Source: an uncultured Paracoccaceae bacterium (lineage in GTDB: Bacteria > Pseudomonadota > Alphaproteobacteria > Rhodobacterales > Rhodobacteraceae). Taken from it: a DNA stretch of 64,000 nt. How positions within the stretch are numbered: position 1 is the stretch's first letter; each line of letters begins with the position of its first letter. The translations under genes were made by a program, and so were the position numbers. The stretch covers positions 463,501 through 527,500 of the forward strand of contig CANMMF010000001.1 in assembly GCA_947498985.1 (NCBI GenBank), given 5' to 3'. Shown here piece by piece: positions 28,187 through 46,579 of the stretch. Under the pieces are notes generated by a model that saw only the letters and a program-made list of their open reading frames with translations, was not told where the DNA came from and ran no database searches.

Positions 28187-28875
28187 GCGCGCTGCTGGAT
28201 CTCAGGGGGGTAGAGGCGTCCTACGGCGCGTCGCAAGCGCTTTTCGGCGTGGATCTGCAGGTGCGCGAAGGCGAGCTTGTGGCGCTCATGGGCCGCAACG
28301 GCATGGGCAAGACAACCACGATCAAGGTGATCTGCCGGTTGCTGAAGAACAGCGCCGGCGACGTCGCCTTTGCCGGGCAGGACCTGCGCAGCCTGCCGTC
28401 GCACAAGGCCGCTCAGCTGGGGCTGGGGCTGGTGCCGGAAGGGCGGCGCTGCTTCACCAATCTCAGCGTCTGGGAAAACCTTTACGCCGCGGCGCGGCCC
28501 GGCGCATGGGATCTGGCCAAGGTCTACGAGCTGTTCCCGCGGCTGGGCGAGCGCGCCGATCAGATGGCCAAGTCGCTCTCGGGTGGCGAGCAGCAGATGC
28601 TTGCCATCGGGCGCGCGTTGATGACCAACCCGCGGCTGCTGATCCTGGACGAGGCGACAGAGGGGCTTGCCCCGGTGGTGCGGCAGGAAATCTGGGCCGC
28701 CATCGGCACGCTCAAGAGCACCAGCGGCCTGTCGATCCTCGTGGTCGACAAGACCATCAGCGAGCTGCGCCGGATCGCCGACAGCGCGGTGATCCTCGAA
28801 CGCGGCAGGTCTGTCTGGCAGGGGCGGATCGACGCTCTGACCAGCGATCTGCGCAACAAATATCTGGGGGTCTGA
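28183..28875 (+). CDS. ABC transporter ATP-binding protein (LivF type)
   Basis: A 230-residue ATPase closing the importer operon. Walker A is MGRNGMGKTTTIKVI, the signature is SLSGGEQQMLAIGRAL, Walker B is RLLILDEATEGLAPVV, and the switch position reads LVVDKTISEL, with D-K replacing the usual EQN/EHD, as seen in some members. LGLVPEGRRCFTNLSVWENL is typical of LivF. Confidence 0.92.
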   Translation: MSALLDLRGVEASYGASQALFGVDLQVREGELVALMGRNGMGKTTTIKVICRLLKNSAGDVAFAGQDLRSLPSHKAAQLGLGLVPEGRRCFTNLSVWENLYAAARPGAWDLAKVYELFPRLGERADQMAKSLSGGEQQMLAIGRALMTNPRLLILDEATEGLAPVVRQEIWAAIGTLKSTSGLSILVVDKTISELRRIADSAVILERGRSVWQGRIDALTSDLRNKYLGV

Positions 28876-30096: not shown

Positions 30097-30107
30097 GAGG
30101 ATCGTCC

Positions 30108-31250
30108 TTATTGGATCTGGTGGCCGTTATTGTCGCCAAACGCCTCTTCGCGGTAGAGGCCGAGCGCCCGCATCACCGGCAGGTCGGACAGGCAAAAGAG
30201 GCAGGCATCGTCGCTGTCGGAGGCATTGCCATGCTCGTGCCAGGCCCAGCTTGGCACGCAGAAGATGTCCCGCTCCGTCCAGTCGAAGCGCTGGCCGTTG
30301 ATGACCGAATAGCCGCTGCCCTTGGCACATTGGTAAAGATAGCTGCCGGTGTGGCGATGCGCCTTGGTGCGCGCGCCGGGGGCCAGGCGCTGCATGCTGG
30401 CCCCCATGGTCTGCATCACCGCGCCGTTGGTCACCGGGTTCACGTATTCCATCAGCGTACCGTCGAAGGGCGACGGGTCGGACGCCGCGGCGTAGCTTGC
30501 AAGCGCCTCATAGGTACGGTCCCATTCGTATTTGAACATCGGGCTGTAACCCTTGTCCCAGGCACCACCCCCCGGCGTGAGACCGGCATTGCCCCAGGTC
30601 TTCGTCATGTCGTCCACGGGGTAGGTCACGGCCTGTGTCAGGTCCGGATGCACCTCGTAGAAATTCGCTTCCATCGCGTTCACAAAGGGAATATCGAGCC
30701 CGTCCTGCCAGATACACGGGCTGCCGTCTGCCGAGACGCCGTGCTCGTGCCAGGTGCCGTTGGGCGTCAGCACGAAGTCATTGGCGTTGAGCGTCATCTT
30801 GTGGCCGTCGACCACCGTATAGGCGCCGCTGCCTTCCATGATGAACCGGATCGCGCTGGCGGAATGGCGATGGGCGGAGGCGACCTCTCCGGGATGCATC
30901 ACCTGCAGACCGGCATAGAGCCAGCCCACCGCTGCGGCCACATCCGTGCGTCCGGGATTGTTGAGGTAGATCACCCTGCGGCCCGCCTTTTCCGGCGTCA
31001 CCAGATCGACCGAGCGCAGCACCTTCTCGCGCAGATCGCCGTAGCGCCAGAGCACCGGGCGCGATTGCGAGGCAGGCTCCCAGGGTTCGATCTTGTTGGC
31101 GACGGTCCAGAGCGCGCCGGCGTCGAAGCCTTCCAGCTCGTCGTAATAGGCCAGAAGCTCGGGCGTGTCCTCGACATTGGCGCGGCCCGCGACGTCTTCG
31201 CGGTGGTTTTCGCGGTGCTTCTCACGGTGTTGCTCACGGTCTACTGGCAT
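30108..31250 (-). CDS. Gentisate 1,2-dioxygenase (double cupin)
   Basis: A 380-residue bicupin. The first cupin has AGLQVMHPGEVASAHRHSAS and GTWHEHG, which supply the Fe(II) histidines. The second has MQRLAPGARTKAHRHTGSYL and PSWAWHEHGNASDS. Ring cleavage of gentisate gives maleylpyruvate. ATG 31250 was chosen because GGGGG lies about 6 bases upstream on the minus strand; an ATG at 31268 would add six residues. The N-terminus has an unusual REQHREKHRENHRED repeat. It is 11 bases upstream of the FAH-family gene. 1-hydroxy-2-naphthoate or salicylate dioxygenases share the fold and cannot be fully excluded. Confidence 0.88.
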   Translation of the reverse strand: MPVDREQHREKHRENHREDVAGRANVEDTPELLAYYDELEGFDAGALWTVANKIEPWEPASQSRPVLWRYGDLREKVLRSVDLVTPEKAGRRVIYLNNPGRTDVAAAVGWLYAGLQVMHPGEVASAHRHSASAIRFIMEGSGAYTVVDGHKMTLNANDFVLTPNGTWHEHGVSADGSPCIWQDGLDIPFVNAMEANFYEVHPDLTQAVTYPVDDMTKTWGNAGLTPGGGAWDKGYSPMFKYEWDRTYEALASYAAASDPSPFDGTLMEYVNPVTNGAVMQTMGASMQRLAPGARTKAHRHTGSYLYQCAKGSGYSVINGQRFDWTERDIFCVPSWAWHEHGNASDSDDACLFCLSDLPVMRALGLYREEAFGDNNGHQIQ

Positions 31251-31407
31251 GTCGGCCCCCTTCGCCATGGTCGTCCGGACTGTGGCACCGGATGACCGGT
31301 GAAACAACAATTTCCGCCCAGCGGGACAGCGCGCTTGCACCCGGATCGCAGGCAGGCCATCACCGGTGGACCGCAGTTATTGCCTCACGCTTTTCAGGAC
31401 TCTGCTC

Positions 31408-31812
31408 ATGAGCTTCACACTGCCGATCAAGATCCTGTTCCAGCATTGCGACCCGGCGGGGATCGTGTTTTTTCCGCGCTATTTCGAGATGATCAACCTG
31501 GTGGTCGAGGAGTGGTTCGAACAGTCGCTCGGCTATCCATTTGCGCAGATGCAAAGTGACGGGTTCGGCGTGCCGACGGTGACGATCAAGACGGATTTCA
31601 CCGCGCCGTCGCGGCTGGGCGACAGGGTCGATTTTCAGCTTACCGTGGCCAAGCTCGGGCGCACCAGCGTCACTCTCGATTACGTTGCCAAGGCCGGAGA
31701 AGAAACCCGGCTCACCGCGCAATCAGTGCTGGTCTACATGGACAAGAGCACCGGGCGGCCGCTGCCCTGGCCAAGCGCGGTGCGGGACCGGATTGCCGCG
31801 CATCTCGACTGA
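31408..31812 (+). CDS. Acyl-CoA thioesterase (4-hydroxybenzoyl-CoA thioesterase type)
   Basis: A 134-residue hotdog-fold protein. FQHCDPAGIVFFPRYFEM carries the catalytic aspartate typical of 4-hydroxybenzoyl-CoA thioesterases of the Pseudomonas type. It continues VTIKTDFTAPSRLGDRVDFQ and ends in the usual helix. It is divergent from the gentisate dioxygenase and near two CoA-ligase genes, so a role in releasing an aromatic acid such as gentisate from its CoA ester is plausible. ATG 31408 gives the standard family start. Confidence 0.88.
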   Translation: MSFTLPIKILFQHCDPAGIVFFPRYFEMINLVVEEWFEQSLGYPFAQMQSDGFGVPTVTIKTDFTAPSRLGDRVDFQLTVAKLGRTSVTLDYVAKAGEETRLTAQSVLVYMDKSTGRPLPWPSAVRDRIAAHLD

Positions 31813-31830
31813 CAGAAGCGGCGCGACACG

Positions 31831-33114
31831 TCAGCTCTCGCTGCGGCGGTCGGTGAAGCGCTGCGGTTTGAAAGCGCCTTCAAAGCCCTGCGCCACTGCG
31901 CCCGGCGCAAGCGCAGTGATCCGCGGGGTGACCTCGAAACTGTCCCTGACGCTGCGGATCAACCGGTCGCGGGACGCGCCTTCGGCCAGTTCGACCTGCA
32001 GGTCGAGCACATCGCTTTGTCCATCAAACAGGATCTCCACCCGGAAATCGGCGACGTCCTCGCTGCGGAACATCAGATCCTCGAAATCGGTGAAGCCGAT
32101 ATTGACGCCGCGCACCTTCACGAATCCCGCAGTGCGATGGGTGTGCTTGATCAGCGGAAAGACATCGTAAGGGCCGCCGCCCGGCACATCTCGGCGAATC
32201 GTCACGATGTCGCCGGTGTTCCAGCGCAGAAACGGCGTGGCGTTGTTGGTCACCAGCGGTGTCACGACCAGCAGGCCCGGCCTGCCGTCTGCCACCGGCT
32301 CCATCGTGTCGGGGTCGAGCACTTCGGGGTAGCAGTAATCCGACCAGAAGCGGAATCCGTCGACCAGCGCATCCTCGCAGCCCAGCATCATCGCTTCGGT
32401 CATGCCATAGCTGTCGCGCACCACGGCGCCGAACAGCGCCTCGAGCTTGGCGCGTTTGGAGGCCGAAAGCGGCTCTGCGGTGCAAAGAATCCTGCGGATC
32501 GTACCTTGCGAAAGATCGATCCCTTGCGCGCGGGCCAGATTGGCCAGTTGCAGCCCGTAGCTTGCCATGCCGATCCAGGCCGTGGGCTGGAACAGCGCCA
32601 TCATCTCGATCTGCATCGCCGAGGGCAGCGTGTTGCCACCGCCCGCCCAGACCACGCCAAGCTCCGCTTCGGCAGAGGCGCGGCCCATCAGGTGCCCGGC
32701 GGGGTGCATGCCCAGCGGCAGCGACAGGTGGGTCACGTCCTGCCGGGTCAGCCCGGCGCAGGCCAGCACGCGGGCGAACCCCTGCAGCCCGAAGGCCATG
32801 TCCTCGCGCGTGCGCGGGTAGAAGAGCGGCCGCCCGGTGGAGCCGCCCGAGCGCCAGTATTCCGCGATCTGCGACCGGTCCGCGATGCAGAACCCGGTAT
32901 AGAACTGCGTGGCGCTCATCTCGCGCAGCATGTCCTTGTCGAGGATCGGCAGGCGCTGCCAGGCGTCCGGTTTCGTGATCCCGTCGAGCTCGACCTCCCC
33001 CAGCCGTGCAGCCATGAAGGGCGATTTCAGCGCCTGAACCACGGCGCGGCGCCGACCCTGCACCTGCCGGGCCTCGAGGTCCGCGGCGGTCCGGGGGATA
33101 TTCAGATCGGTCAT
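31831..33114 (-). CDS. Phenylacetate-CoA ligase family protein
   Basis: A 427-residue adenylate-forming enzyme of the PaaK type. The nucleotide-binding loop is YWRSGGSTGRPLFYP (about residue 90), with VVRDSYGMTEAMMLGCED as the adenylation motif and TPFLRWNTGDIVTIRRD as the hinge. The C-terminal lid includes VKVRGVNIGFTDFEDLM. It should activate an aryl carboxylate to its CoA ester. ATG 33114 follows GCGCGC without a strong ribosome site. It converges on the thioesterase gene and diverges from the dehalogenase-like gene. Benzoate, salicylate or a phenylacetate are all possible substrates. Confidence 0.87.
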   Translation of the reverse strand: MTDLNIPRTAADLEARQVQGRRRAVVQALKSPFMAARLGEVELDGITKPDAWQRLPILDKDMLREMSATQFYTGFCIADRSQIAEYWRSGGSTGRPLFYPRTREDMAFGLQGFARVLACAGLTRQDVTHLSLPLGMHPAGHLMGRASAEAELGVVWAGGGNTLPSAMQIEMMALFQPTAWIGMASYGLQLANLARAQGIDLSQGTIRRILCTAEPLSASKRAKLEALFGAVVRDSYGMTEAMMLGCEDALVDGFRFWSDYCYPEVLDPDTMEPVADGRPGLLVVTPLVTNNATPFLRWNTGDIVTIRRDVPGGGPYDVFPLIKHTHRTAGFVKVRGVNIGFTDFEDLMFRSEDVADFRVEILFDGQSDVLDLQVELAEGASRDRLIRSVRDSFEVTPRITALAPGAVAQGFEGAFKPQRFTDRRSES

Positions 33115-33161
33115 GCGCGCAGCCTCGTCTTTGCCCGCCTCCCGCACAAGGGGGTGGATTT

Positions 33162-33170: not shown

Positions 33171-33216
33171 CTAAACTATTATATCCCGATGCGTATAGAA
33201 AGCCGGAAGTCGCGTG

Positions 33217-34548
33217 ATGCCGCTTGAGGACCAGACACCGGAGGACGCAGGGCCGCTGTTTCCCGACCCCACCCCGGCGCCCGCGACACCTGAGCGCTTC
33301 GCGATGTCCCGCCATGTGGAGGTCACCCCCGACTTCCGACCTTTCGATCAGCCCAACGACATGTTCAGCCGCGGCTTCTGGGATCCGCGATTTGCCAACC
33401 GGGTGACGATGAAGTTCTTCCGCTCCTTCGTGAAACCGCAGGAACGGATGCGCGACGAGGAGGGGTTCGGCCAGCAGGATTTCGCGCTGCGCAACGGACC
33501 CTGGGTGGTGACCGAGATGTTTGCCGAGATGCATAAGGCCAAGGGGCGGCGCGACGGGTTTACCGACGATTTCACCCCGCATCTGCCGCCAAGGGTGGAT
33601 CCCGCCGAGATCGGCAGCCCGCAGGAGGCGGCGCGGGGCGTCAGGAAAGTGGCAAAGCTCTACGGCGCGGATCTGGTGGGCATCACCGCCTATGACCCGC
33701 GCTGGACCTACCGGTCGAAATTTTCCGCCCGCACCCAGACAAGCCGTCCGGTGGAGCTGCCCGAGGGGCTGACCTCGGTCATCGTGCTGGGCAAGGCGAT
33801 GGACTATGACATCATCCGCATGTCGCCTTCGGCCACCGCTTCTGCCGGGCCGGCCTCGGGCTATGCCGAAGACGCGATCACCCTGCTGGCGTTGGCGCAA
33901 TATATCCGGTCGCTGGGCTACATCGCGGTCGCCAACCAGAACGACACGACGCTGGCGGTGCCCTATGCAGTGCAGGCGGGTCTGGGGGAATACGGGCGCA
34001 ACGGGCTTTGCATCACGCCGGAATACGGGCCCCGCGTCCGGTTCGGGCGCATCCTGACCAACATGCCGCTGGCCCATGACGCCCCGCAGCGATTTGGCGT
34101 GGAGGAGACCTGCGCGCTTTGCCGTCGCTGCGCCAATAATTGCCCGCCGCAGGCCATCGATCACGGCGTGCCGTCGACCTACAGGTTCAACCGCTCCAAC
34201 ATCAAGGGTGTGCGGAAATGGACCACCGATGGCGAGAAATGCTTCAAGTTCTGGGTCTCGCGCGGCACCGATTGCGCCAATTGCGTGCGCGTCTGCCCCT
34301 ATAACAAGGACCGGCGCAGGCCGCTGTCGCGCCTCGTGCTCTGGATGCTGCGCCAGCCCGCGCTGCGTCGCCTTGCCCTCAGGCTCGATGACCACTTGCG
34401 CCTGCACGACCAGATCAAGCCCTCGGCCTGGTGGAAAGGCCGGGTCGAGACGCTGGACAAGGCCAGGGACAGCCCGCCCGATCCCGATCTCAAGGCACAG
34501 CAGGACCGGCTCAAGGCCATCCGGGACGAAAAGTATGGCACCGGCTGA
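33217..34548 (+). CDS. Reductive dehalogenase-like cobalamin/iron-sulfur protein
   Basis: A 443-residue protein resembling the RdhA family, which removes halogens from organohalides with a corrinoid and two [4Fe-4S] clusters. The first cluster motif is CALCRRCANNCP (about residues 299-310, CxxCxxCxxxCP). The second uses C342 and CANCVRVCP (353-361). Upstream blocks VELPEGLTSVIVLGKAMDYD and GLGEYGRNGLCITPEYGPRV match the B12-dependent domain. There is no twin-arginine signal, so it should be cytoplasmic, like the respiration-independent catabolic enzymes. No fused reductase domain or membrane anchor gene is seen. A GTG 3 bases earlier is an alternative start. Epoxyqueuosine-reductase-like proteins are the main alternative. 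Confidence 0.8.
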   Translation: MPLEDQTPEDAGPLFPDPTPAPATPERFAMSRHVEVTPDFRPFDQPNDMFSRGFWDPRFANRVTMKFFRSFVKPQERMRDEEGFGQQDFALRNGPWVVTEMFAEMHKAKGRRDGFTDDFTPHLPPRVDPAEIGSPQEAARGVRKVAKLYGADLVGITAYDPRWTYRSKFSARTQTSRPVELPEGLTSVIVLGKAMDYDIIRMSPSATASAGPASGYAEDAITLLALAQYIRSLGYIAVANQNDTTLAVPYAVQAGLGEYGRNGLCITPEYGPRVRFGRILTNMPLAHDAPQRFGVEETCALCRRCANNCPPQAIDHGVPSTYRFNRSNIKGVRKWTTDGEKCFKFWVSRGTDCANCVRVCPYNKDRRRPLSRLVLWMLRQPALRRLALRLDDHLRLHDQIKPSAWWKGRVETLDKARDSPPDPDLKAQQDRLKAIRDEKYGTG

Positions 34549-34769: not shown

Positions 34770-35174
34770 TCAGGCATCCGGTCCGAGACAGGCGGTCGCC
34801 TCGATCTCCAGCAGGGCGTCGTCTTCGATCAGACCGGCCACCACCAGCATCGACATCGCCGGGAAGTGACGGCCCAGCACGCGGCGATAGACCTCGCCCA
34901 CTTCGCGCTGCCGGGCGAGATATTCGCGCTTGTCGATGACAAACCAGGTCAGTCGGGTGATGTCCTCGATCTCGCCGCCCGCTTCGCGCACGATGTCGAC
35001 GATGTTGCGCAGCGCCTGCTCCATCTGGCCAATGAAGTCGTGGCTCTGGAACACCTGCTCGGCGGTCCAGCCGATCTGCCCGCCGATATAAAGCGTGCCG
35101 TCGCGCGCCAGCATACCGTTGGCATAGCCCTTGGCAGGGGCCCAGCCCTGAGGTTGGATGGTTTTCGCGGACAT
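34770..35174 (-). CDS. RidA family protein
   Basis: A 134-residue Rid protein: GYANGMLARDGTLYIGGQIG, then FIGQMEQALRNIVDIVREAG and DITRLTWFVIDKREY. At the site of the imine-deaminase arginine it reads FPAMSMLVVAGL, so the arginine is replaced by M. It lies 24 bases downstream of the CoA-ligase gene on the same strand, as is common for Rid proteins in anthranilate/aminobenzoate clusters, where handling of a reactive enamine or imine intermediate would make sense. Activity is unproven because of the missing arginine. Confidence 0.88.
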   Translation of the reverse strand: MSAKTIQPQGWAPAKGYANGMLARDGTLYIGGQIGWTAEQVFQSHDFIGQMEQALRNIVDIVREAGGEIEDITRLTWFVIDKREYLARQREVGEVYRRVLGRHFPAMSMLVVAGLIEDDALLEIEATACLGPDA

Positions 35175-35198: not shown

Positions 35199-36809
35199 CT
35201 AGTGCTTCAACAGGAAGCGCTGGATTTTCCCGGTCTGCGTCTTTGGCAGAGCCTCTGCAAAGACGACGCGGCGGGGGTATTTGTAAGGGGCGATGCTTGC
35301 CTTGACGTGATCCTGCAAGAGCTTGGCGGTTGCCTCCGACGGCGCGCCATCGGCCAGAACCACATGCGCCTCGACAATCATGCCCCGCGCGTCGTCCGGC
35401 GCACCGATCACCGCGCATTCGGCGACCTGCGGATGCGAAAGTAAGGCCGCCTCGACCTCCGGCCCCGCGATATTGTAGCCCGAGGACAGGATCATGTCGT
35501 CGTTGCGCGCGGCGAAATGCAGATAGCCGTCGGCATCCATGGAAAACGCATCACCGGTGATGTTCCAGCCGTCCAGCACATAGCCCGCCTGCCGATCGTC
35601 AGCGAGATACCGGCAGCCGGTGGGGCCGCGCACGGCCAACCGTCCGACCTCTCCGCGCGGCAGATCCTCGCCGTCTTCACCGATGATCTTCGCCTGATAC
35701 CCGGTGACCGGACGCCCGGTGCAGGCGGGCCGGTGGTCGTCGAAGCGGTTGGAGACAAAGATGTGCAGCATCTCCGTGGCGCCGATCCCGTCGAGCATCG
35801 GCTTGCCGGTCTTGGCCATCCAGTCCTCGTAGACCGGGGCGGGCAGTGTCTCTCCGGCAGAGACGGCGGCGCGCAGGCTCGACAGATCCGCGCCCTCCTC
35901 CATCGCCGCCAGCATCGCACGGTAGGCGGTGGGCGCGGTGAAGCAGACGGTGGCTTTGTACTTCTCGATGATCTCGATCATGTTCGGCGGAGAGGCGGTT
36001 TCCAGAAGCGTCGCGGTGGCGCCGAACCGCAAGGGAAAGATCGCCAGCCCGCCCAGCCCGAAGGTGAAGGCCAGCGGCGGCGAGCCGACAAACACGTCCT
36101 CGGGCACCACGCCCAGCACCTCGCGCGCATAGCCGTCGGCGATGATCAGCAGATCGCGGTGGAAATGCATCGTGGCCTTGGGCGCCCCGGTGGAGCCCGA
36201 CGTGAAGCCCAGCAGCGCCACGTCATCGCGCCCGGTCTCCACCGCGTCAAAGCGCACCGGCTTTTCCAGCGCCAGCCGGTCCAGCTCCGCATCGTGGTTG
36301 GACGTGCCGTCGAACCCGACCACGGTTTTCAGGAACGCGCTGTCCTTGGCGCATCTGGTCATCTCGTCCATCAGCCGCGTGTCGCAGAGCGCGTGGGTGA
36401 CCTCGGCCTTGTCGACAATCGCCGTCAGCTCTCCGGCGCGCAGCATCGGCATGGTGTTGACCACCACCGCGCCCGCCTTGGTCGCGGCCAGCCAGCAGGC
36501 GACCATCGCGGGATTGTTGGCGGACCGGATCAGCACGCGGTTGCCGGGCTTCACCCCCAGATCGCTGACCAGCGCATGGGCCAGCTTGTTGGTCCAGTCG
36601 CTCAGCTCCTTGTAGGTGCGGATCCGGCCGTTGCCGATAAGGGCGGTGTGATCGCCAAAGCCCTGATCGACCATCCTGTCGGTCAGCTCGACCCCGGCAT
36701 TCAGCCGCTCGGGATAATCGAACCCGTCGAGCAGGAAATCCGGCCATTGATCGCGCGGCGGCAGGTTGTCGCGCGCGAAGCTGTCGGTATGAGCGGAAGG
36801 GCCAAGCAT
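35199..36809 (-). CDS. 2-Aminobenzoate (anthranilate)-CoA ligase-like enzyme
   Basis: A 536-residue ANL-superfamily ligase of the benzoate/2-aminobenzoate-CoA ligase group. The P-loop motif is LGFTSGSTGAPKATMHFH. MLDGIGATEMLHIFVSN is the A5 motif, WNITGDAFSMDADGYLHF the A7 motif, and SSGYNIAGPEVE with the final PKTQTGKIQRF supplies the catalytic lysine. The gene neighbours a fused 2-aminobenzoyl-CoA monooxygenase/reductase-type gene and the kynurenine pathway that yields anthranilate. This context makes anthranilate the best substrate guess; benzoate or salicylate cannot be excluded. Confidence 0.88.
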   Translation of the reverse strand: MLGPSAHTDSFARDNLPPRDQWPDFLLDGFDYPERLNAGVELTDRMVDQGFGDHTALIGNGRIRTYKELSDWTNKLAHALVSDLGVKPGNRVLIRSANNPAMVACWLAATKAGAVVVNTMPMLRAGELTAIVDKAEVTHALCDTRLMDEMTRCAKDSAFLKTVVGFDGTSNHDAELDRLALEKPVRFDAVETGRDDVALLGFTSGSTGAPKATMHFHRDLLIIADGYAREVLGVVPEDVFVGSPPLAFTFGLGGLAIFPLRFGATATLLETASPPNMIEIIEKYKATVCFTAPTAYRAMLAAMEEGADLSSLRAAVSAGETLPAPVYEDWMAKTGKPMLDGIGATEMLHIFVSNRFDDHRPACTGRPVTGYQAKIIGEDGEDLPRGEVGRLAVRGPTGCRYLADDRQAGYVLDGWNITGDAFSMDADGYLHFAARNDDMILSSGYNIAGPEVEAALLSHPQVAECAVIGAPDDARGMIVEAHVVLADGAPSEATAKLLQDHVKASIAPYKYPRRVVFAEALPKTQTGKIQRFLLKH

Positions 36810-36812
36810 CGC

Positions 36813-37262
36813 TCAGTCGTTGGCTTCGGGCGGCAGGAAATCGACATCGTGCTCGGCAGAGACCTTCACCACCGCTTCGACATCGGTCATGTCGTGCAGC
36901 TCTTCGAAAAGCTCCCTGAGCTTGCCGGCGGGAGAAACCCAGAAAAGCGCGCGGCAGGGCTTGTCGGACTTGTTGAAATAACCGTGCGGGATGCCACGCG
37001 GCATGCGCACGACGTCGCCCTCGCGGGCCTTGGTCCAGACCCCGTCAAGCTTCAGATCCAGCTCACCCTCCTGCACGAGGATGAATTCGTCCTGCGTCGG
37101 ATGGATATGTACCGGGACAAAATCACCGGGGGCGGAATTGGTCTCGAACGCGAAGGTCGAGTCGCAGATTGCCTTGGGGTAATAGGTCTGGCCGAGGATG
37201 TTCCAGGTTGTTTCCTTATAACCGACGCCGTTTCCGGTGATGCCTTTTTCAAGATCTGCCAT
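36813..37262 (-). CDS. Single-domain cupin protein
   Basis: A 149-residue cupin. Motif 1 is PGDFVPVHIHPTQDEFILVQ (two histidines and a glutamate) and motif 2 is GDVVRMPRGIPHGYFN with the last histidine, so the metal site is complete. ATG 37262 follows AGGAGGATAACCC, a perfect ribosome site. It is 3 bases upstream of the CoA-ligase gene. A role as dioxygenase, isomerase or binding protein in the same pathway is possible; none can be assigned. Confidence 0.85.
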   Translation of the reverse strand: MADLEKGITGNGVGYKETTWNILGQTYYPKAICDSTFAFETNSAPGDFVPVHIHPTQDEFILVQEGELDLKLDGVWTKAREGDVVRMPRGIPHGYFNKSDKPCRALFWVSPAGKLRELFEELHDMTDVEAVVKVSAEHDVDFLPPEAND

Positions 37263-37266
37263 GGGG

Positions 37267-38424
37267 TTATCCTCCTGTGAATGCGCCGAGCGTCTGGCGC
37301 GCGATGATGATTTTCTGAACGTCCGAGGCACCTTCGTAGATGCGCAAGGCACGGATTTCGCGGTAGAGGCTTTCGACCGTCTCGCCCCGACGCACGCCGT
37401 CGCCGCCATGCAACTGCACAGCCCGGTCGATGACCTTCTGCGCCTGGTCGGTGGAAAAGAGCTTGGCCATCGCCGCCTCGCGCGTGACCCGCGGCGCGCC
37501 GGAATCCTTGGCCCAGGCGGCGCGGTAGACCAGCAGCGCGCTGGCATCGACATCAAGCGCCATGTCGGCGATGTGGCCCTGCACCATCTGCAGATCGAAA
37601 AGCGGCGCGCCCTGAACATGGCGGGAGGTGACCCGCGCCAAAGCCTCGTCCAGCGCGCGGCGGGCAAAGCCCAGCGCGGCGGCGGCAACGGTGGCGCGGA
37701 AGACATCGAGCACCGACATGGCGATCCGGAAGCCCGCGCCGCTGTCGCCAAGACGGGCCGTGGCCGGGATACGGCAGCCGTCAAACGAAAGCGTCGCCAG
37801 AGGGTGTGGCGCGATGGTCTCGAGCCGGTCCGTGACGCTTAGTCCGGGTCTACCCGCAGGCACGATGAAGGCCGATAGCCCCTTTGCGCCCGGCGCGTCT
37901 CCGGTGCGCGCGAACACTGTGTATACATCTGCTATACCGCCGTTGGAGATCCAAGTCTTTTCTCCATCGAGCACATAGTCTTCACCGTCTGCGGTCGCCG
38001 TCATCGTCGAGTTGGCCACGTCGGACCCCGATGCCGGTTCGGTCAGCGCAAAGGCAGAGATCGCCTCGCCCCGCCGCACCTTCGGCAGCCATTCCTCCTG
38101 CTGGTCACGTGTGCCGAAAAGCGAGATCGCGCCGGTGCCCAGCCCCTGCATCGCAAAGGCAAAATCCGCGAGCCCGTCATGCCGCGCCAGCGTCTCGCGG
38201 ATGAGGCAGAGCGTGCGCACGTCGAGCGCATCGCCCGACCCCGGCGCCACCGCCGCATGCTCCAGCCAGCCAGCCGCGCCCAGCGCGGCGACGATGTCGC
38301 GGCAGGCCTGATCGGTGTCGGAATGATCCACCGAAAGATCTGCGGCAAACGCCTCCAGCCGGTCGCCAAGGACGCGGTGCCGGTCGTCGAAAAACGGCCA
38401 GGTGAGAAAGGACCGGTCTGCCAT
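37267..38424 (-). CDS. Acyl-CoA dehydrogenase
   Basis: A 385-residue flavoprotein with the usual fold: helical N-domain, middle domain [20 protein letters not shown] and [20 protein letters not shown], and helical C-domain with [20 protein letters not shown] followed by [15 protein letters not shown]. The glutamate in RIYEGAS is at the catalytic-base site of many members. It would oxidise or, run backwards, reduce a ring-derived CoA ester. Its ATG overlaps the enoyl-CoA hydratase stop. Confidence 0.9.
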
Positions 38425-39224
38425 CAATTGCCCTCGAACACAGGTTTTTCCTTGGCGACGAAGGCCCTGTAGGCGCGTTCGAAATCGCCGGTCTGCATAC
38501 AGATCGCCTGCGCCTGCGCTTCGGCCTCGATGGCCTGCTCGATCGACATCGACCATTCCTGCGCCAGCATCGTCTTGGTCATCATATGGGCAAAATTGGG
38601 CCCCGCCGCGATGCGGCTGGCCAGAGCGCGCGCATCGGTGTCCAGATCGTCAGTGAGCGCAGTGTAGAACCCCCAGGCGTGGCCTTCCTCGGCGCTCATC
38701 GAGCGGCCGGTGTAAAGCAGCTCCGCCGCGCGGCCCTGTCCGATGATCCGCGGCAGGATCGCGCAAGCGCCCATATCGCAGCCCGCCAGCCCCACGCGGG
38801 TGAAGAGAAACGCGCATTTGGCCTCAGGTGTCGCGATCCGCAGGTCCGAGGCCATGGCAATGATCGCGCCCGCGCCGACGCAGATTCCGTCCACCGCGGC
38901 GATCACCGGCTTGCCGCAGTTGACCATCGCCTTGACCAGATCGCCGGTCATGCGCGTGAAGGTCAGCAGGTCCTTCATATCCATCCGGGTGAGCGGGCCG
39001 ATGATGTCATGCACATCGCCGCCAGAGGAAAAGTTGCCGCCATTGGCCGCAAAGATCACCACATCGACATCCTCGGCATAGACAAGATCGCGGAACCAGT
39101 CGCGCAGCTCGGCATAGCTGTCGAAGGTCAGCGGATTCTTGCGGTCCGGACGGTCAAGCTGCACCGTCGCGATACGATCCTCGATCCTGCAATTGAAGTG
39201 TCTGACATCGGTGCGTGTGCTCAT
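38424..39224 (-). CDS. Enoyl-CoA hydratase/isomerase family protein
   Basis: A 266-residue crotonase-fold protein. The oxyanion-hole segments are [19 protein letters not shown] and [39 protein letters not shown] carries the second active-site region, with D in place of a typical glutamate, as in several ring-hydrolase and isomerase members. It lies in a chain of overlapping genes with the MarR regulator upstream and acyl-CoA dehydrogenase downstream. Hydration or C-C cleavage of an alicyclic CoA ester is expected from context. Confidence 0.88.
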
Positions 39225-39694
39225 GCGCCGGATCCCCCGTTCATCTGATCAAAGCGCGCGCTGAGCGCAAAGGCTTCTTCGGCGCTGAAATCCTCCAGCA
39301 TTTCGTCGATCCAGCCTTCATGGGCTCTGGCCTGCCGGGCGAATTCCTCGCGCCCTTTCTGCGTCAGGCGCACGCGTGAGGCGCGGCGGTCGCCGGGCAC
39401 CGCGATGCGCACCATCAGGCCGTCCTCCACCAGCCGGTCGACGATGCCGGTGACGTTGCCGTTGGAAACGCGCAGCACCCCCGACAGCTCGCTCATCTTG
39501 AGACCCTGCTCATGCCGCGACAGGGCCGCCATCACGTCGAACCGCGGCAGGGTTGTGTCGAACTCGGTTCGGAGGTTCTCGCGCAGCTGCGTCTCAACCA
39601 CCCGCGAGGCACGCAGCAGGCGCAACCACAGCCGCAGCCGTTCTTTCGACGGTGTGCCGATCTTGGCGTCGGAATCGGAATGAGCCCGGGTCAA
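39221..39694 (-). CDS. MarR family transcriptional regulator
   Basis: A 157-residue winged-helix regulator: [20 protein letters not shown], then the DNA-binding part [20 protein letters not shown] and the wing [20 protein letters not shown]. The start is a TTG at 39694 overlapping the SDR stop (TTGA) with AGGAGGCGAAA directly upstream; the longer frame would lie inside the SDR gene. It sits inside the catabolic operon and is the likely sensor of a CoA-ester intermediate. The inverted repeat at 42779-42809 is its best candidate operator. Confidence 0.88.
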
Positions 39695-40434
39695 ATTTCG
39701 CCTCCTGACAGGCTGAGCGCATGGCCGTTCACCGACCGCGCCGCGTCCGAACAAAGCCAGAGGGCGGCGCCCGCGACCTCGTCGGTCTGGATGAACCGGC
39801 GTTGCGGATTGACACTGGTCAGCGATGCCGCCGCGTCGTCCCCGCTCATGCCGGTCTTGGCCACGATATTGTCCAGCGAGCGTTGCAGCATGGGGGTTTC
39901 GACAAAGCCCGGGCAGATGGCATTGACGGTGATGCCGGTGCTGGCCAGCTCAAGCGACAAGGCCCGGGTCAATCCGACCACGCCGTGCTTGGCCGCGCAA
40001 TAGCCCGAAACGTAAGGATAGCCCTTGAGCCCCGCGGTGGAGGCGATGGCGATCATCCGGCCCTCGCCTGCCGCTTTCATGTCCGCCAAAGCGGCCTGCC
40101 AGACGTTGAAGACACCCAGCAGGTTCACCGATGTCATCTCGTCCAGATCGGCGGCGGTCATCTTTGCAAAGGGTTTCGAACTGGCGGCACCCGCGTTGGC
40201 AATGACCACCGTCACCGGCCCCTGTGCGGCGCGCGCGGCTTCGAACGCGCTGGCCACGGCCTCGGTCGAGGTGACGTCGCAGATCTGGTAAGGCAGGTTC
40301 TGGTCCCTGAGCGGCGCGTCGCGGCGGCCCATGATGGTGACGCTGGCGCCTGCCCGTGCAAAGGCCTGCGCGGTCTCGGCCCCCACGCCGGAGCCGCCGC
40401 CGGTCACCACCACATGTGCCTTGTCGAGCTTCAT
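39691..40434 (-). CDS. Short-chain dehydrogenase/reductase
   Basis: A 247-residue classical SDR. The cofactor motif is [20 protein letters not shown] (TGxxxGxG), with NAGAA, the catalytic serine in [12 protein letters not shown], and the YCAAKHG pair (Y and K). [16 protein letters not shown] follows. It resembles 3-hydroxyacyl-CoA dehydrogenases of aromatic CoA pathways. It is translationally coupled to the fused oxygenase gene upstream (ATGA overlap) and to the MarR gene downstream. Probable role: oxidation of a hydroxy-cyclohexene or hydroxyacyl-CoA intermediate. Confidence 0.9.
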
Positions 40435-42722
40435 ACCCGCGTCATCTCCGCCTCGCGATCCGCCAGCCGCCAGGCCTGATCCCGGCCTGCCTCGTAGGGC
40501 AGCGGCCAGGTCTCGTGCCGGTCGCCCAGCGCGGTGGCGGTGTGCAGCGTCCAGTAGGGATCGGCCAGATGCGGGCGGGCCAGACAGACCAGATCGGCGC
40601 GCCCGGCCATCAGGATCGAGTTCACGTGGTCCGCCTCGTAGATATTGCCGACCGCCATCGTCCGGATGCCGTTTTCGTTGCGGATCCGGTCCGAAAACGG
40701 TGTCTGGAACATGCGGCCATAGACCGGCTGCGCCTCGGTCGAGGTCTGCCCGGCGGATACGTCGATGATATCGGCACCGGCGGCTTCGAACATCGCGGCA
40801 ATCTCCACCGCCTCTTCGGGGGTCACACCATCGTCGCCCGCCCAGTCGCTGGCCGAGATCCGCACCGCCATCGGCTTGTCCTCCGGCCAGACCGCGCGCA
40901 TCGCGGCAAAGACCTCCAGCGGATAGCGCATGCGGTTCGCAAGGCTGCCGCCATAGGCATCGTCGCGGGTGTTGGACAATGGCGAGATGAAGGACGAGAT
41001 CAGATAGCCATGCGCCGCGTGCAATTCGATCATGTCGAAGCCCGCGCGCTTTGCCATCTCTGCGGCGGCCACAAACTGAGCCGTCACGCGGTCCATATCG
41101 GCGCGGTCCATCGCCTTCGGTGTCGCGTTCCCATCCGACCAGGGAATGGCCGAGGCGGAGATCAGCGGCCAGTTGCCGGATGTCAGCGGCGTGTCCATAC
41201 CTTCCCATCCCAGATTGGTGGAGCCCTTGCGCCCGGAATGGCCGATCTGGCAGCAGATCCTTGCCTCCGTCTCATCATGCACAAACCGGGTGAGCCGCGC
41301 CCATTCGGCCTCGTGTTCGGGCGCGTAAAGCCCCGGGCAGCCCGGCGTGATGCGGCCTTCGGGCGAGACGCAGGTCATCTCCGTGTAGACAAGCCCGGCG
41401 CCGCCCTTGGCGCGCTCGCCGTAATGGATGAGATGCCAGTCGGTCGGGCAGCCGTCGACGGCCTTGTACTGCGCCATCGGCGACACCACGATGCGGTTTT
41501 TGAGCGTCATGCCGCGCAGCTGGAAGGGTGCAAACATCGGCGCGCGCACCGGGCCGTTGGACCCCCCTCCGGCCTGTTCCATGAACCACGCTTCGGCCGA
41601 TTGCAGCCATTCCGGGTCGCGTTCGCGCAGGTTCTCGTGGCTGATGCGCTGCGAACGCGTAAGCATCGAGTAATTCAGCTGCACCGGGTCGAGATCGAGA
41701 TAGCGTTCCACATCCTCGAACCATTCCAGCGAGTTGCGCGCCGCCGATTGCAGGCGCAGAACCTCGAGGCGGCGCTTGTCCTCGTAGTTCCGGAACGCGG
41801 TTTCGAGGTCTGGCCCGGCGACCACCTCATCGGCCAGCGCGATGGCGCTTTCCATCGCAAGCTTGCTGCCCGACCCGATGGAGAAATGCGCGGTTGCCGC
41901 CGCATCGCCCAGCAGCACCACGTTCTTGTGGCTCCACCGCTTGCAGAGCACGCGCGGGAAACGGATCCAGGCGGAGCCGCGAATATGGTTGGCGTTGGTC
42001 ATCAGCTTGTGACCACCCAGATGATCCCTGAAGACCTCTTCGCAGACCGCGATTGTCTCCGCCTGGCTCATCTCGCCAAAGCCGAAATTGTCAAAGGTCC
42101 GCTGGCTGCATTCCACGATGAATGTCGCGGTGTCGTCGTCGAACTGGTAGGCATGCACCCAGAGCCAGCCCTTGTCGGTCTTCTCGAAGATAAAGGTGAA
42201 GGCGTCGTCGAATTTCTGATGAGTGCCGAGCCAGACGAACTGGCACTTGCGCAGGTCGATATCGGGCTCGAACGCGTCTTCGAACTCCATCCGGGTTCTC
42301 GAGTTCAGACCGTCACTGGCAACCACCAGATCGTAATCGTGCATGTGGTCGGAGGCGGCACCAACCTCTGTCTCGAAGCGCAGATCGACCCCCAGCTCGC
42401 GGGCGCGCGCCTGCAGGATCAGCAGCAGCTTCATCCGTCCGATACCGCAGAACCCATGGCCGCTCGAGACCAGTTTCTGACCTTTGTAATGCAGCGCGAT
42501 ATCGTCCCAATAGGCAAAGCTGGCGCGGATCTCCTGCGCGCTGACCGGATCGTTGGCCGCGAGGTTGTCGAGAGTTTCGTCGGACAGAACGACACCCCAG
42601 CCAAAGGTGTCATCGGGCCTGTTGCGCTCGAGAACGACGACCTCTGCGCCGGGGTCGCGCAGCTTCATCGAGATGGCGAAGTAGAGACCGGCGGGTCCGC
42701 CGCCGAGACAGGCTATGCGCAT
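40431..42722 (-). CDS. Fused FAD monooxygenase/old-yellow-enzyme: 2-aminobenzoyl-CoA monooxygenase/reductase or salicylyl-CoA 5-hydroxylase type
   Basis: A 763-residue fusion. Residues 1 to about 385 are a class A flavin monooxygenase: [20 protein letters not shown], then the DG-type [17 protein letters not shown], then [20 protein letters not shown]. Residues about 395-763 are an old-yellow-enzyme barrel: [20 protein letters not shown], then [20 protein letters not shown] and [20 protein letters not shown]. This architecture is that of 2-aminobenzoyl-CoA monooxygenase/reductase, which hydroxylates and then reduces the ring, and of proteins annotated salicylyl-CoA 5-hydroxylase. The anthranilate context favours the first reading; the gentisate dioxygenase favours the second. 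It diverges from kynB. Confidence 0.92.
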
Positions 42723-42778
42723 CGGTATGCCCTGACTTTGGTTGGACTGCCGGAAAAACCTACGCCCAACGGATAGTC

Positions 42779-42809
42779 ATTTCAAGCATAAATATTTTGA
42801 GCTTGAAAT
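42779..42809. promoter_or_regulatory. Inverted repeat operator, probable MarR site
   Basis: ATTTCAAGC (42779-42787) and GCTTGAAAT (42801-42809) are perfect 9-base arms 13 bases apart, so their centres are about 22 bases (two helical turns) apart. They lie in an AT-rich part of the divergent region between the fused oxygenase gene and kynB. This is a likely regulator site controlling both directions; the MarR protein at 39221-39694 is the best candidate. Confidence 0.72.
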
Positions 42810-42917
42810 ATAAATAGAGTAGGGATGACCCGGAAGGCCGCGACGGGTGATCAAGCCGGGCTAGCTTTGAACATAGCGCGCTTGCCCGGGCCGGGCAGCA
42901 CAAAAGGAGACCAGATC

Positions 42918-43727
42918 ATGCCGAACCGCGATTGGGACGACGCCTATGCCAACATGGCCCATATCGAAGGCTCCGACAAACTGCCCGCCCTCTGGTCGGA
43001 GCGCGCGGCCGCCTATCGGCAAAGTGCTGTGCGCATCGAAGAGGGTATCGCCTACGGCGATGACCCGCGCGAGCGGTTCGATCTGGTCTGGCCCGATGGT
43101 GACCCCAAGGGCCTCGCGGTGTTTGTGCATGGCGGCTACTGGCTGCGTATGGACAAATCCTACTGGACCGATCTCGCCGAGGGCGCGCGCGCCAATGGCT
43201 GGGCGGTGGCCTTGCCGCAATACACGCTGGCCCCGGCCGCGCGTCTTGCGCAGATGACGCAGCAGATCGGTGCCGCCATCTCGCAGGCCGCGACGCTGGT
43301 GCCCGGGCCGCTCCGGATTGCCGGGCATTCGGCGGGTGGGCATCTGGTGAGCCGCATGACCTGTGCGGACAGTCCGCTCTCCGAGAATGTCAGATCGCGG
43401 CTGCAGCACACGCTCTCGATCAGCGGGCTGCACGATCTGCGCCCGCTGATGTGGACGGCGATGAATAAGGATCTGCAGATCGACGAGGATGAGGCGCAGC
43501 GCGAAAGCCCCGCCTTGCTGCGCCCCCTGCCCGGGACACGGATCACTGCCTGGGTCGGCGGTGGCGAGCGGCCGGAATTCATCCGGCAATCGAGGCTGCT
43601 GGCGATGATTTGGCAGGGGCTCGACGTGCAGACCGATGTCGTCATCGACGGGAAGCACGACCATTTCTCGCTGCTGGAAGGTCTGAAACAGGCCGAAAGC
43701 CCGCTGACGGCCGCCTTTGTAGAATAA
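42918..43727 (+). CDS. kynB: Arylformamidase (kynurenine formamidase), alpha/beta hydrolase
   Basis: A 269-residue alpha/beta hydrolase. The oxyanion segment VFVHGGYWLRMDKSYW is at about residue 71, the nucleophile elbow is GHSAGGHLV (S138), and the late histidine is in GKHDHFSLLEG. HGGYW is typical of hydrolase-type kynurenine formamidases, which hydrolyse N-formylkynurenine to kynurenine. ATG 42918 follows AAAGGAGACCAGATC. Tryptophan dioxygenase and kynureninase genes lie just downstream on the same strand, which fixes the role with good confidence. The symbol is used for function; this is not the metal-dependent KynB fold. Confidence 0.88.
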   Translation: MPNRDWDDAYANMAHIEGSDKLPALWSERAAAYRQSAVRIEEGIAYGDDPRERFDLVWPDGDPKGLAVFVHGGYWLRMDKSYWTDLAEGARANGWAVALPQYTLAPAARLAQMTQQIGAAISQAATLVPGPLRIAGHSAGGHLVSRMTCADSPLSENVRSRLQHTLSISGLHDLRPLMWTAMNKDLQIDEDEAQRESPALLRPLPGTRITAWVGGGERPEFIRQSRLLAMIWQGLDVQTDVVIDGKHDHFSLLEGLKQAESPLTAAFVE

Positions 43728-43785
43728 TATATGATTCTGTATTTCGTGTGATATATCGCGGAAAACACATGAAAGCGAATCGCCC

Positions 43786-44553
43786 TTGTCCGACCTCCGC
43801 GCCAAATCGGAACCTCTCTTTGACAGGATGCGTGACGATATCCTGACGCTGGCGCTGGAGCCCGGTGCGGCCCTGCGTCTGCCCAGCCTGTCGGAACGTT
43901 ACGGGATTGGCGTGACACCGCTGCGCGACTGCCTGAACCGGCTCAGCACGGAAAAGCTGGTGGTTGTGGAGCACAACAAGGGGTTTCGCGTCTCGGCGCT
44001 GACAACCGCCGACCTGCTCGATCTCGAACGCAGCCGCAACGCCATCGAGGGCGCGCTTTTTGCCCGCGCGGTGGAGGATGGCGACGATGCCTGGGAGGCC
44101 GGTGTGATCGGCACCTACCACCAGCTGTCGCGCACCGAGTTGCCGTCGATATTGCTGCCCGATGACCGGCTGGCGCGCTGGACCAGCCGCCATGCGGCGT
44201 TTCACGATGCGCTGATTGCCGGTGCGCCGTCGCACTGGATGACCCGGTTCCGGACCCAGCTCAACGACCATCTCAGCCGCTACCAGCGCTATATCCAGTC
44301 CGGTCTGCGGCAGATGGCCGGGACCCGTCCGGCGCTCGCGTCCGAAGCCGCGACGATCTTTGAAACCGCAATGGCGCTGGCGCCGCACACGGCACTCTAC
44401 CGGGCCGCGCTGGACCGCAATGCAACCGCGGCCCGCCAGACCATCGAGGCGCATGCCAGGCTCTCGATCACCGCCTTCGAAAACCTGATCGCGCTGGTCG
44501 CCACCACACCGGAAAAGACCGCCGCAACCCGACCCGAGGAGCTGATCCTATGA
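43786..44553 (+). CDS. GntR family transcriptional regulator (FCD domain)
   Basis: A 255-residue regulator. The helix-turn-helix is [20 protein letters not shown], the wing is [20 protein letters not shown], and a helical FCD domain follows with [20 protein letters not shown] and [18 protein letters not shown]. The start is a TTG with no strong ribosome site; no ATG is in frame nearby. An AT-rich stretch (43728-43760) upstream may hold its operator. The stop overlaps kynA (ATGA), so it is probably a local regulator of tryptophan catabolism. Confidence 0.88.
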
Positions 44554-45380
44554 GCGTCTACGACCCCGCCAGCGATGGCGCCAAGATGTCCTTTGCCAAG
44601 GACATGTCCTATATCGACTACCTGTCGCTCGACCCCATTCTGGGCGCGCAGAACCGTCAATCCGATGCGCATGACGAGATGCTGTTCATCATCCAGCACC
44701 AGACCTCCGAGCTCTGGATGCGGCTGGCGCTGCACGAGCTTTCCACCGCGCGCGAGATGCTGGCCAAAGGCGCGTTCCCGCCCGCTTTCAAGATGCTGAC
44801 GCGGGTGGCGCGGATCTTTGACCAGCTCAACAACGCATGGGACGTGCTGCGCACCATGACGCCCAGCGAATACACCGAATTTCGCGAGACGCTGGGGTCG
44901 TCCTCGGGCTTTCAGTCGCATCAATACCGGCTGATCGAATTCATTCTCGGCAATCGCAACCGGGCGATGATGAAGGTTCACGAGCATCGGCCCGAGCTGC
45001 ATCACATGCTGGGGCAGGAGCTTGAGACCAAATCGCTTTACCACGTGACACTCGACATTCTGGCGCATGAGCTTGACGTCATCTTCGATCCCGCCATCTA
45101 CCGGCTGGACGCGCCGCACAAGGCCGATGACGCGGTGATGGCGGCGTGGACAATGGTCTATCGCGACCCCAGCAGCCACTGGTCACTATACGAGCTGGCC
45201 GAAAAGCTGGTCGATCTGGAAGATTATTTTCGCCGCTGGCGATTCAACCACGTGACCACGGTGGAGCGCATCATCGGTTTCAAACGCGGCACCGGCGGCA
45301 CGTCCGGCGTCACCTATCTGCGCAAGATGCTCGAGGTCGAGCTTTTCCCAGAGCTCTGGAACATGCGAGGCAACCTATGA
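44550..45380 (+). CDS. kynA: Tryptophan 2,3-dioxygenase
   Basis: A 276-residue heme dioxygenase that converts L-tryptophan to N-formylkynurenine, the first and usually controlling step. Family blocks are [55 protein letters not shown] and [18 protein letters not shown]. The R-rich and GTGGT segments shape the tryptophan and heme pockets. Length is normal. The stop overlaps kynU (ATGA) and the start overlaps the GntR gene, giving a tight kynB-gntR-kynA-kynU operon. Confidence 0.96.
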
Positions 45381-46579
45381 AAGACGGCACCATGACCCTT
45401 CCGATGAAGCACCGGTTCCACCTGCCCGAAGGGGTGATCTATCTCGACGGCAACTCCCTCGGGCCGCTGCCGAAAGGCGTGACGGAGCGGGTGTCGGTGA
45501 TGCTCTCGGACGAATGGGGCGCGCATCTCATTCGCGGCTGGAATGTCGATGACTGGATGGGCCAGCCGATGCGCGTGGGCAATATGGTGGGACGGCTGAT
45601 CGGCGCGCCGGATGGGTCCACGGTCATGGGCGACACGCTGTCGGTCAAGGTCTATCAGGCGCTGGATGCGGCGCTGAAGATGCGCCCGGACCGCAAGGTG
45701 ATCCTGTCGGACAACAGCAACTTTCCCTCCGATCTCTATATGGCGCAGGGGCTCATCGCGCAGCTGGGTCAGGGCCATGAGCTGCGCATCGTCGATCCCG
45801 AAGAGGTGATGGACGCGCTGACCGATGAGGTCGCCGTCGCGATGATCACGCAAGTCGGCTACCAGACCGGCTATATGCACGATATGAAGGCAATGACCGC
45901 AAAGGCCCATGAGGCGGGCGCGGTCATGCTTTGGGATCTGGCGCATAGTGCCGGTGCCGTGCCGGTCGATGTCAGCGCCAGTGGCTGCGAATTTGCCGTG
46001 GGCTGCACCTACAAGTACCTCAATGGCGGGCCGGGCGCGCCGGCCTTCATCTATGTACGGCCCGATATCGTCGATCAGATCCGGCCCGCGCTGGCCGGCT
46101 GGCTGGGCCACGACGCGCCCTTTGCCTTCGAGGGCGATTACCGCCCGGCCAAGGATGTAGAGCGGATGCGCGTCGGCACGCCGCCGGTGGTGCAGATGAC
46201 GGCGCTGGAAGAGGCGCTGAAGATCTGGGACGAGGTCGACATGGCCGCGCTGCGCGCCAAAAGCATCGCGCTCTGCGAGCTTTTCATCGCGGAGGTGGAG
46301 CAGAGATGTGAGGGTGTGACCCTTGCCAGCCCGCGTGACGCGGCGATGCGCGGCTCGCAGGTCTCTTTCGCGTTCGAGAACGGCTATGCGGCGATGCAGG
46401 CGCTGATCTCGAAAGGGGTGATCGGCGATTTCCGCGCGCCCGACATCATGCGCTTTGGCTTCACGCCGCTTTACATCGACGAAGACGATGTGCGCGCCGC
46501 GGTGGATATCCTCGCGGACGTGCTGGGCAACCGGCTATGGGACACGCCGGAGTTCAAGCGCACGAGCCGCGTCACCTGA
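45377..46579 (+). CDS. kynU: Kynureninase
   Basis: A 400-residue PLP-dependent enzyme that splits kynurenine into anthranilate and alanine. [16 protein letters not shown] is at the N-terminus and [18 protein letters not shown] follows. The PLP aspartate and lysine are in [14 protein letters not shown] and [16 protein letters not shown] (K213). [16 protein letters not shown] closes the active site. No kynurenine 3-monooxygenase or 3-hydroxyanthranilate dioxygenase gene is seen, so the product should be anthranilate, the substrate of the CoA-ligase pathway next door. ATG 45377 overlaps the kynA stop. Confidence 0.96.

Follow-up and report, generated by a model that had tools for sequence, protein, structure and literature searches.

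A predicted tryptophan-to-anthraniloyl-CoA catabolic island with an arginine-less Rid protein and a glutamate-less crotonase in an alphaproteobacterial genome

The window analyzed here is a stretch of 64,000 nucleotides from contig CANMMF010000001.1 of an uncultured Paracoccaceae bacterium (an alphaproteobacterial genome of 5.29 Mb, completeness given as 100%). It contains two divergent gene sets that we read, with a probability of roughly 0.85, as an aerobic tryptophan catabolic island, which would convert L-tryptophan via anthranilate and anthraniloyl-CoA to a CoA ester whose ring is reduced and no longer aromatic. At its center lies the gene for ACMR, a flavoprotein in which an aromatic monooxygenase is fused to an old-yellow-enzyme (OYE) reductase. 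The features are as follows, with the basis of each call in brackets.

42918-43727, plus strand, alpha/beta hydrolase, kynB-like (PDB relatives, sequence motifs)
43786-44553, plus strand, GntR/FCD-family regulator (Pfam)
44550-45380, plus strand, tryptophan 2,3-dioxygenase KynA (TIGR03036)
45377-46579, plus strand, kynureninase KynU (TIGR01814)
42780-42808, no strand, palindrome TTTCAAGC-N13-GCTTGAAA in the divergent promoter region, candidate MarR site
40431-42722, minus strand, ACMR, FAD aromatic monooxygenase fused to OYE reductase, 763 aa (NF006101)
39691-40434, minus strand, short-chain dehydrogenase/reductase, SDR (Pfam/NCBIfam)
39221-39694, minus strand, MarR-family regulator (Pfam)
38424-39224, minus strand, crotonase-fold enzyme (NF006107, 470 bits against a cut-off of 330)
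37267-38424, minus strand, acyl-CoA dehydrogenase, ACAD (Pfam)
36813-37262, minus strand, small cupin, optional member (Pfam Cupin_2)
35199-36809, minus strand, AMP-forming aryl-CoA ligase, predicted anthranilate-CoA ligase (PDB relative 4wv3, pAL1 ligase)
34770-35174, minus strand, Rid-family protein, 134 aa (Pfam PF01042)

Profile matches and gene calls recover every gene named in an earlier, sequence-only reading of this DNA, in the order and on the strands that it gave, although its span of 35199-46579 leaves out the Rid gene that it names. In order of transcription, the minus-strand genes encode ACMR, SDR, MarR, crotonase, ACAD, cupin, ligase and Rid; neighbors overlap by 1-4 bases or are separated by gaps of 3-24 bases, the pattern of a single transcript. 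The two divergent operons have a region of 195 bases (42723-42917) in common. KynU most likely starts at 45377, within a longest frame that begins at 45146. Beyond kynU lies dxs, followed by pufC, pufM, pufL and bchZ; the gap of 33 bases that had been claimed for this border is correct, and separates the stop codons of the convergent kynU and dxs genes.

The upper arm of the proposed route would consist of KynA, the kynB-like hydrolase and KynU, which together would turn L-tryptophan into anthranilate, alanine and formate. The kynA gene in the island is the single copy in the whole genome, and its product is 74.5% identical to a Ruegeria pomeroyi protein annotated as tryptophan 2,3-dioxygenase. 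KynU scores 286.3 bits against TIGR01814 and exceeds the cut-off of 246.4. The hydrolase carries HGGYW and GHSAG motifs, matches the Drosophila-type kynurenine formamidase 4e11 (E 3.5e-13) and 2pbl (E 4.8e-67) in a PDB search, and is predicted to be an N-formylkynurenine formamidase of the animal AFMID type. A whole-genome search for 3-hydroxyanthranilate dioxygenase gave zero TIGR03037 matches at E up to 1e-30, and nothing in the genome scores over the cut-off for anthranilate 1,2-dioxygenase (TIGR03228; best 96 bits against 672). As neither dioxygenase search gave a match at its threshold and there is one kynA, the anthraniloyl-CoA route is the only recognized exit for anthranilate among those searched. 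The earlier statement that the 3-hydroxyanthranilate branch is absent holds for the ring-cleaving dioxygenase; kynurenine 3-monooxygenase was not searched.

From anthranilate onward, the ligase is predicted to form anthraniloyl-CoA, and ACMR would then hydroxylate the ring and reduce it to 2-amino-5-oxocyclohex-1-ene-1-carboxyl-CoA; we infer the steps through ACMR because the enzymes are homologous to characterized ones. The best solved relative of the ligase is 4wv3 ("Anthranilate-CoA ligase", 296 bits), with the best benzoate-CoA ligase at 261 bits, and over 535 aa the protein shares 52.9% identity with the ligase encoded beside ACMR on plasmid pAL1 of Arthrobacter sp. Rue61a. By sequence it thus groups with anthranilate-CoA ligases of the assayed type. 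The Rue61a paper, in its accessible text, describes anthranilate-CoA ligase activity for an expressed pAL1 gene, which by its position we take to be the one compared here, and its authors state that the strain degrades anthranilate via the CoA-thioester pathway alone (PMC3534580). ACMR itself scores 1296.5 bits against NF006101, compared with a cut-off of 1078. Its FAD motifs and its OYE motif HAAHGY, which we take to be its active sites, consist of residues that are invariant across 16 aligned rows. The claim that tryptophan would be passed through anthranilate and anthraniloyl-CoA to a hydroxylation and reduction step is therefore supported by homology and gene context.

The distribution of the island was followed in two samples. 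The named loci are the best 80 of at least 593 ACMR matches, Oceaniglobus ichthyenteri being the closest named organism by ACMR (87%). The class sample comprises 385 alphaproteobacterial genomes, with ACMR called at E up to 1e-200; 60 of its 74 ACMR places were fetched, and the remaining 14 are the window's own and 13 others not used, of which several are partial or lie on short contigs. The resulting 140 loci span up to 10 kb on each side of ACMR, and linkage counts demand set identities and 40% coverage, with early contig ends counted as absence. Among the named loci, SDR is present in 76, MarR in 79 and a collinear six-gene core in 63, while kynA is found in 32, kynA with kynU in 22 and kynA, kynB and kynU together in 12. 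The 60 class-sample loci show a collinear core in 15, kynA in 6 and kynA with kynU in 4. Across whole genomes of the class sample, ACMR occurs in 71, KynA in 58 and both in 44, so that KynA accompanies ACMR in 44 of 71 genomes but is found in 14 of the 314 without it (Fisher p 5.6e-27, uncorrected for kinship). Kyn linkage, here counted with the coverage rule dropped (38 of 140 loci), changes at least 19 times over the 140 rows of the ACMR tree, a FastTree phylogeny that carries a long-branch warning. As a locus it is unremarkable, a further copy of a tryptophan/anthranilate cluster that is widespread in alphaproteobacteria. The suggestion that a whole route in one block is unusual does not survive the comparison, given the 22 named loci with kynA and kynU and a block of nearly the same make-up in R. 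pomeroyi.

The same counts bear on the idea that the minus-strand operon is a general sink for anthranilate, whether derived from indole acetate, quinolines or tryptophan, with the kyn genes as one plug-in among others. This idea is compatible here with a tryptophan island, and we regard it as possible, at odds clearly below even. It accommodates the many named loci with a collinear core and the far fewer with kynA nearby, the Liv-type importers found near ACMR in 29 of the 80 named loci, and the case of Rue61a, which is held to use ACMR for anthranilate derived from quinaldine (PMC3534580, in its accessible text). In the window genome, however, kynB, kynA and kynU are contiguous and have the divergent promoter region in common with the ACMR operon, and no second full-length ACMR was found there, all of which speaks against this idea.

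For the lower half of the tryptophan route we propose a model only tentatively, at odds not far short of even. The arginine-less Rid protein would hydrolyze the beta-enamino CoA thioester released by ACMR to 2,5-dioxocyclohexane-carboxyl-CoA, the SDR would reduce the ring ketone, the glutamate-less crotonase would open the cyclic beta-keto thioester hydrolytically to 4-oxo- or 4-hydroxypimeloyl-CoA, and ACAD would feed this product into beta-oxidation.

The Rid protein has Met107 at the position of the catalytic Arg of characterized Rid deaminases (Arg105 in S. enterica) and thus lacks the residue that defines RidA. Among 52 linked relatives called as open frames (Rid itself was found in 70 of the 140 loci), the residue is Met in 51 and Val in one; it is Met in the plasmid-encoded Rids of Rue61a and Aminobacter and Leu in that of Haladaptatus. 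In PDB alignments, PH0854, YabJ and UK114 have Arg at this position, and 5v4f has another residue. The catalytic Arg is described, in the accessible part of the Rid literature, as touching the carboxylate of the substrate and as required for deaminase activity. In the product of ACMR a CoA ester takes the place of the carboxylate, so that loss of the carboxylate-binding Arg would be expected, and we consider Rid a candidate enamine deaminase for this product. A Rid gene is a near neighbor of ACMR in 43 of the 80 named loci and in 27 of the 60 from the class sample, and is so too on plasmids of Arthrobacter, Comamonas, Aminobacter and Haladaptatus. During growth on anthranilate, Rue61a contains a C7H8O4-CoA, possibly cyclohexanedione-carboxyl-CoA according to the authors (PMC3534580, accessible text); this is the predicted Rid product and fits a deamination step, be it enzymatic or spontaneous. 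A literature search, with most subscription papers outside its reach, did not find a link between Rid and the ACMR product, which is no proof of novelty.

Alternatively, Rid may merely guard against stray reactive enamines outside the main flux, with deamination being spontaneous. We rather doubt this, although the ACMR product, a 2-amino-5-oxo compound, is unstable below pH 5 (PMC3534580), RutC is dispensable for the use of its pathway under laboratory conditions, and Arg-less Rid proteins (Rid4-7) are so far without demonstrated deaminase activity (both PMC8113886; both sources in their accessible text), the last of which also counts against the deamination step itself. What speaks for enzymatic deamination is the substitution of Met for Arg, which is fixed with one operon type and suggests a special substrate. 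The genome holds ten Rid places in all, with the catalytic Arg kept in one of the nine that can be aligned; within the window, a further Rid gene lies at 13377-13802, and a single open frame at 21147-22598 on the plus strand encodes an aldo/keto reductase with a Rid domain fused at its C terminus.

The crotonase comparison covers 60 aligned rows of 100 available. All 60 have Phe141 where 18 of 18 FadJ-like hydratases have Glu, presumably the first catalytic Glu of enoyl-CoA hydratases, so that the protein departs from the classical hydratase pattern; Asp150 is invariant in the same 60 rows. We regard the enzyme as a candidate ring-opening hydrolase. In a fold search, its model (pLDDT 81.7) matches 6-oxocamphor hydrolase with Z 27.1 and a beta-diketone hydrolase with Z 25.9. 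ACAD retains Glu364 (motif RIYEG, at least 97% conserved in 88 rows), which we take to be the catalytic residue of the acyl-CoA dehydrogenase family, and classifies as a member of it. The beta-oxidation-like steps that had been foreseen are borne out only in part: ACAD has its catalytic Glu, but the crotonase is without that of the hydratases. Other genes near ACMR in the named loci encode a thioesterase (21 of 80), a FadJ-like enzyme (12 of 80) and a PcaF-type thiolase (4 of 80). The cupin is found in 6 of 80 and is 80% identical to the R. pomeroyi cupin at the same place.

The palindrome at 42780-42808 is exact and has no other exact copy in the genome. With a spacer of 11, 12 or 13 bases and up to two mismatches, it recurs ahead of the ACMR gene in 32 of the 79 named loci that offer a usable upstream stretch (one of the 80 does not), compared with a mean of 0.1 for shuffled sequence and with 4 of 800 random pieces from named loci. 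Because the MarR gene is such a constant member of these loci, its product is probably the protein that binds the palindrome, and as the site lies in the region common to both operons, MarR could govern both arms.

Several observations weigh against the proposed tryptophan route or parts of it. KynA scores 381.3 bits, slightly below the curated TIGR03036 cut-off of 390.7; the sole NCBIfam match of the hydrolase is NF058665, "hormone-sensitive lipase", above cut-off; and the NCBI name for NF006101, and thereby for ACMR, is salicylyl-CoA 5-hydroxylase. Linkage is less frequent in the class sample: of the 44 genomes with KynA and ACMR, only 7 have the two genes within 12 kb of each other, 20 of the 60 class-sample loci show no further island gene, and the palindrome is found in just 7 of the 60 (up to two mismatches; shuffled mean 0.0). 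Moreover, 3-hydroxyanthranilate dioxygenase is present in 20 of the 71 ACMR genomes, and in 15 of the 44 that also have KynA. Rid was not found in 37 and the cupin not in 74 of the 80 named loci, early contig ends being scored as absence. Finally, the fold search cannot part ring hydrolases from hydratases, because plain hydratases score higher (Z up to 30.1) than the ring hydrolases.

Catabolism of salicylate, with the ligase forming salicylyl-CoA, the fused enzyme acting as salicylyl-CoA 5-hydroxylase and gentisate being cleaved by the dioxygenase-like enzyme and the hydrolase encoded at 29164-31340, is very improbable: the name and score of NF006101 and the presence, within 12 kb of ACMR, of a gentisate 1,2-dioxygenase-like gene (about 9 kb away; 320.8 bits, below the cut-off of 442.1), a fumarylacetoacetate-hydrolase-family gene and a thioesterase gene are outweighed by the absence of matches to the dioxygenase-like protein in all 140 ACMR loci (tblastn, E up to 1e-8, within flanks of 10 kb at most), the rarity of the hydrolase gene there (2 of 140 at 40% identity or more), the retained OYE motif, which a gentisate route would not need, the contiguous kyn genes and the co-occurrence of KynA with ACMR across genomes, and the resemblance of the ligase, among solved structures, to anthranilate-CoA ligases above all. 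On these counts we reject a route through the left-flank genes as the main reading. The findings suggest that "salicylyl-CoA 5-hydroxylase" is a misleading public name where this ACMR clade is concerned.

To the left of the tryptophan island, three further features deserve mention.

24238-28875, plus strand, Liv-type ABC transporter: binding protein, two permeases, two ATPases (family matches)
31366-31812, plus strand, 4HBT-type thioesterase (Pfam)
33214-34548, plus strand, reductive-dehalogenase-family gene adjoining the Rid gene (TIGR02486, 174.9 bits against a cut-off of 160.35)

The Liv subunits have best identities of 71-84% to Liv genes in ACMR loci, and at E up to 1e-30, counting weaker matches too, they have counterparts in 22-38 of the 140 loci. 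The island may therefore extend to 24238, with the transporter as an outlying part. Between the two lie fumarylacetoacetate-hydrolase, gentisate-dioxygenase-like, thioesterase, PaaK-like and reductive-dehalogenase-like genes, among which the thioesterase gene alone has frequent relatives near ACMR (31 of 140 loci, best 59% identity); it is possibly a pathway member, or may instead belong with the left-flank genes. The genes at 29164-33147 (fumarylacetoacetate hydrolase, gentisate/5-aminosalicylate dioxygenase-like protein, thioesterase and PaaK-like CoA ligase) form a second aromatic-acid block. Near the left end of the window, at 453-2069 on the plus strand, lies a fumarylacetoacetase gene (TIGR01266, 497 bits), and more than one aromatic amino acid route is therefore represented within 46 kb.

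The nearest solved relatives of the dehalogenase-like protein are tetrachloroethene dehalogenases. TIGR02486 matches at E up to 1e-20 occur in 45 of the 385 genomes, and a relative with at least 40% identity in 17 of 32 regions fetched (chosen among about 90 places); in two of these 17 (L246 and L254), kynA and kynU lie within 3 kb, co-directional in one. The three kyn-linked genes, however, form no clade (3 changes, shuffled mean 3.0). Within the family, 34 of 256 genomes have such a gene, and in the five others of these for which the place of kynA is known it is never within 90 kb on the same contig; the sister species has no match at E up to 1e-60. We do not count this gene as a pathway member, and it remains a lead: the enzyme might act on halogenated tryptophan products. 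In L254 (4821-19497) and L246 (16872-18662), CapA/CapB-like (hydantoinase-type), amidase and CoA-transferase-like genes also lie near kynA/kynU and the dehalogenase-like gene; this CapA/CapB-like set may be a module for opening an indole or oxindole ring.

The neighboring photosynthesis genes had been taken as a sign of a phototroph that burns tryptophan. Among 61 relatives, which lend no support to this, pufM is found in 18, ACMR in 19 and both in 8. The two are seen close together only in the window genome; in one other they are 0.7 Mb apart, and in the remaining six they lie on different contigs of draft genomes, where closeness is not strictly excluded. In a sister genome of the same genus (G385), the island is on one contig (C53, 72.6 kb, ACMR at 32 kb) and dxs-puf on another (C11, 127.9 kb, pufM at 45 kb), with ACMR and pufM each at least 30 kb from the ends of their own contigs. 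A link between photosynthesis genes and island is not supported, and the adjacency is best taken as chance.

New here are a Rid without the Arg, a crotonase without the Glu and a conserved palindrome upstream of ACMR. Interest in the locus comes from the steps beyond ACMR, which had yet to be resolved in 2022, when GapMind, as its accessible text states, omitted ACMR-type tryptophan degradation for want of knowledge (PMC9007349). The conserved operon provides a short list of enzymes for these steps. Rid and the crotonase are good candidates for deamination and ring opening, respectively, and their residue changes yield specific and cheap predictions.

The locus adds no new pathway, since the route is already known in outline from Azoarcus evansii and Rue61a, as far as the accessible text of those sources goes, and reportedly from Phaeobacter inhibens. 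A 2014 study of P. inhibens is said to have traced tryptophan via kynurenine and 2-aminobenzoate and then along the steps of A. evansii; according to the accessible text of a paper that cites it, this study used tryptophan-grown cells. The likeness to the 2-aminobenzoate clusters of A. evansii (Schuhle et al. 2001) is taken from papers that cite their description. A much closer counterpart lies on the megaplasmid of R. pomeroyi DSS-3 (NC_006569, SPO_RS21860-SPO_RS21905), where a hydrolase-kynA pair is likewise divergent from ACMR, SDR, MarR, crotonase, ACAD, cupin, ligase and Rid genes, with 50-85% identity to the window gene by gene; unlike the window, it has no GntR or KynU gene beside kynA and no photosynthesis genes in the stretch examined. 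In Sagittula stellata, kynA and kynU follow the ligase gene, together with genes for a thioesterase and a 3-hydroxyacyl-CoA dehydrogenase. On Rue61a pAL1 (NC_009453), the anthranilate-CoA ligase gene also adjoins ACMR, with Rid and cupin genes nearby (identities to the window: ACMR 48%, ligase 53%, Rid 31%, the cupin hardly alike), but the stretch examined has no kyn, SDR, crotonase or ACAD genes and its regulators are of the PaaX type. Plasmids also carry ACMR with several island partners in Aminobacter sp. MSH1 (with kynU), in Comamonas and, more distantly, in the archaeon Haladaptatus. The Haladaptatus plasmid (L184) has, at 7366-20356, ligase, ACMR-like, Rid, ACAD, MaoC, SDR and crotonase-family genes with 24-45% identity to the window. 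A pathway-like system may thus reach as far as the archaea.

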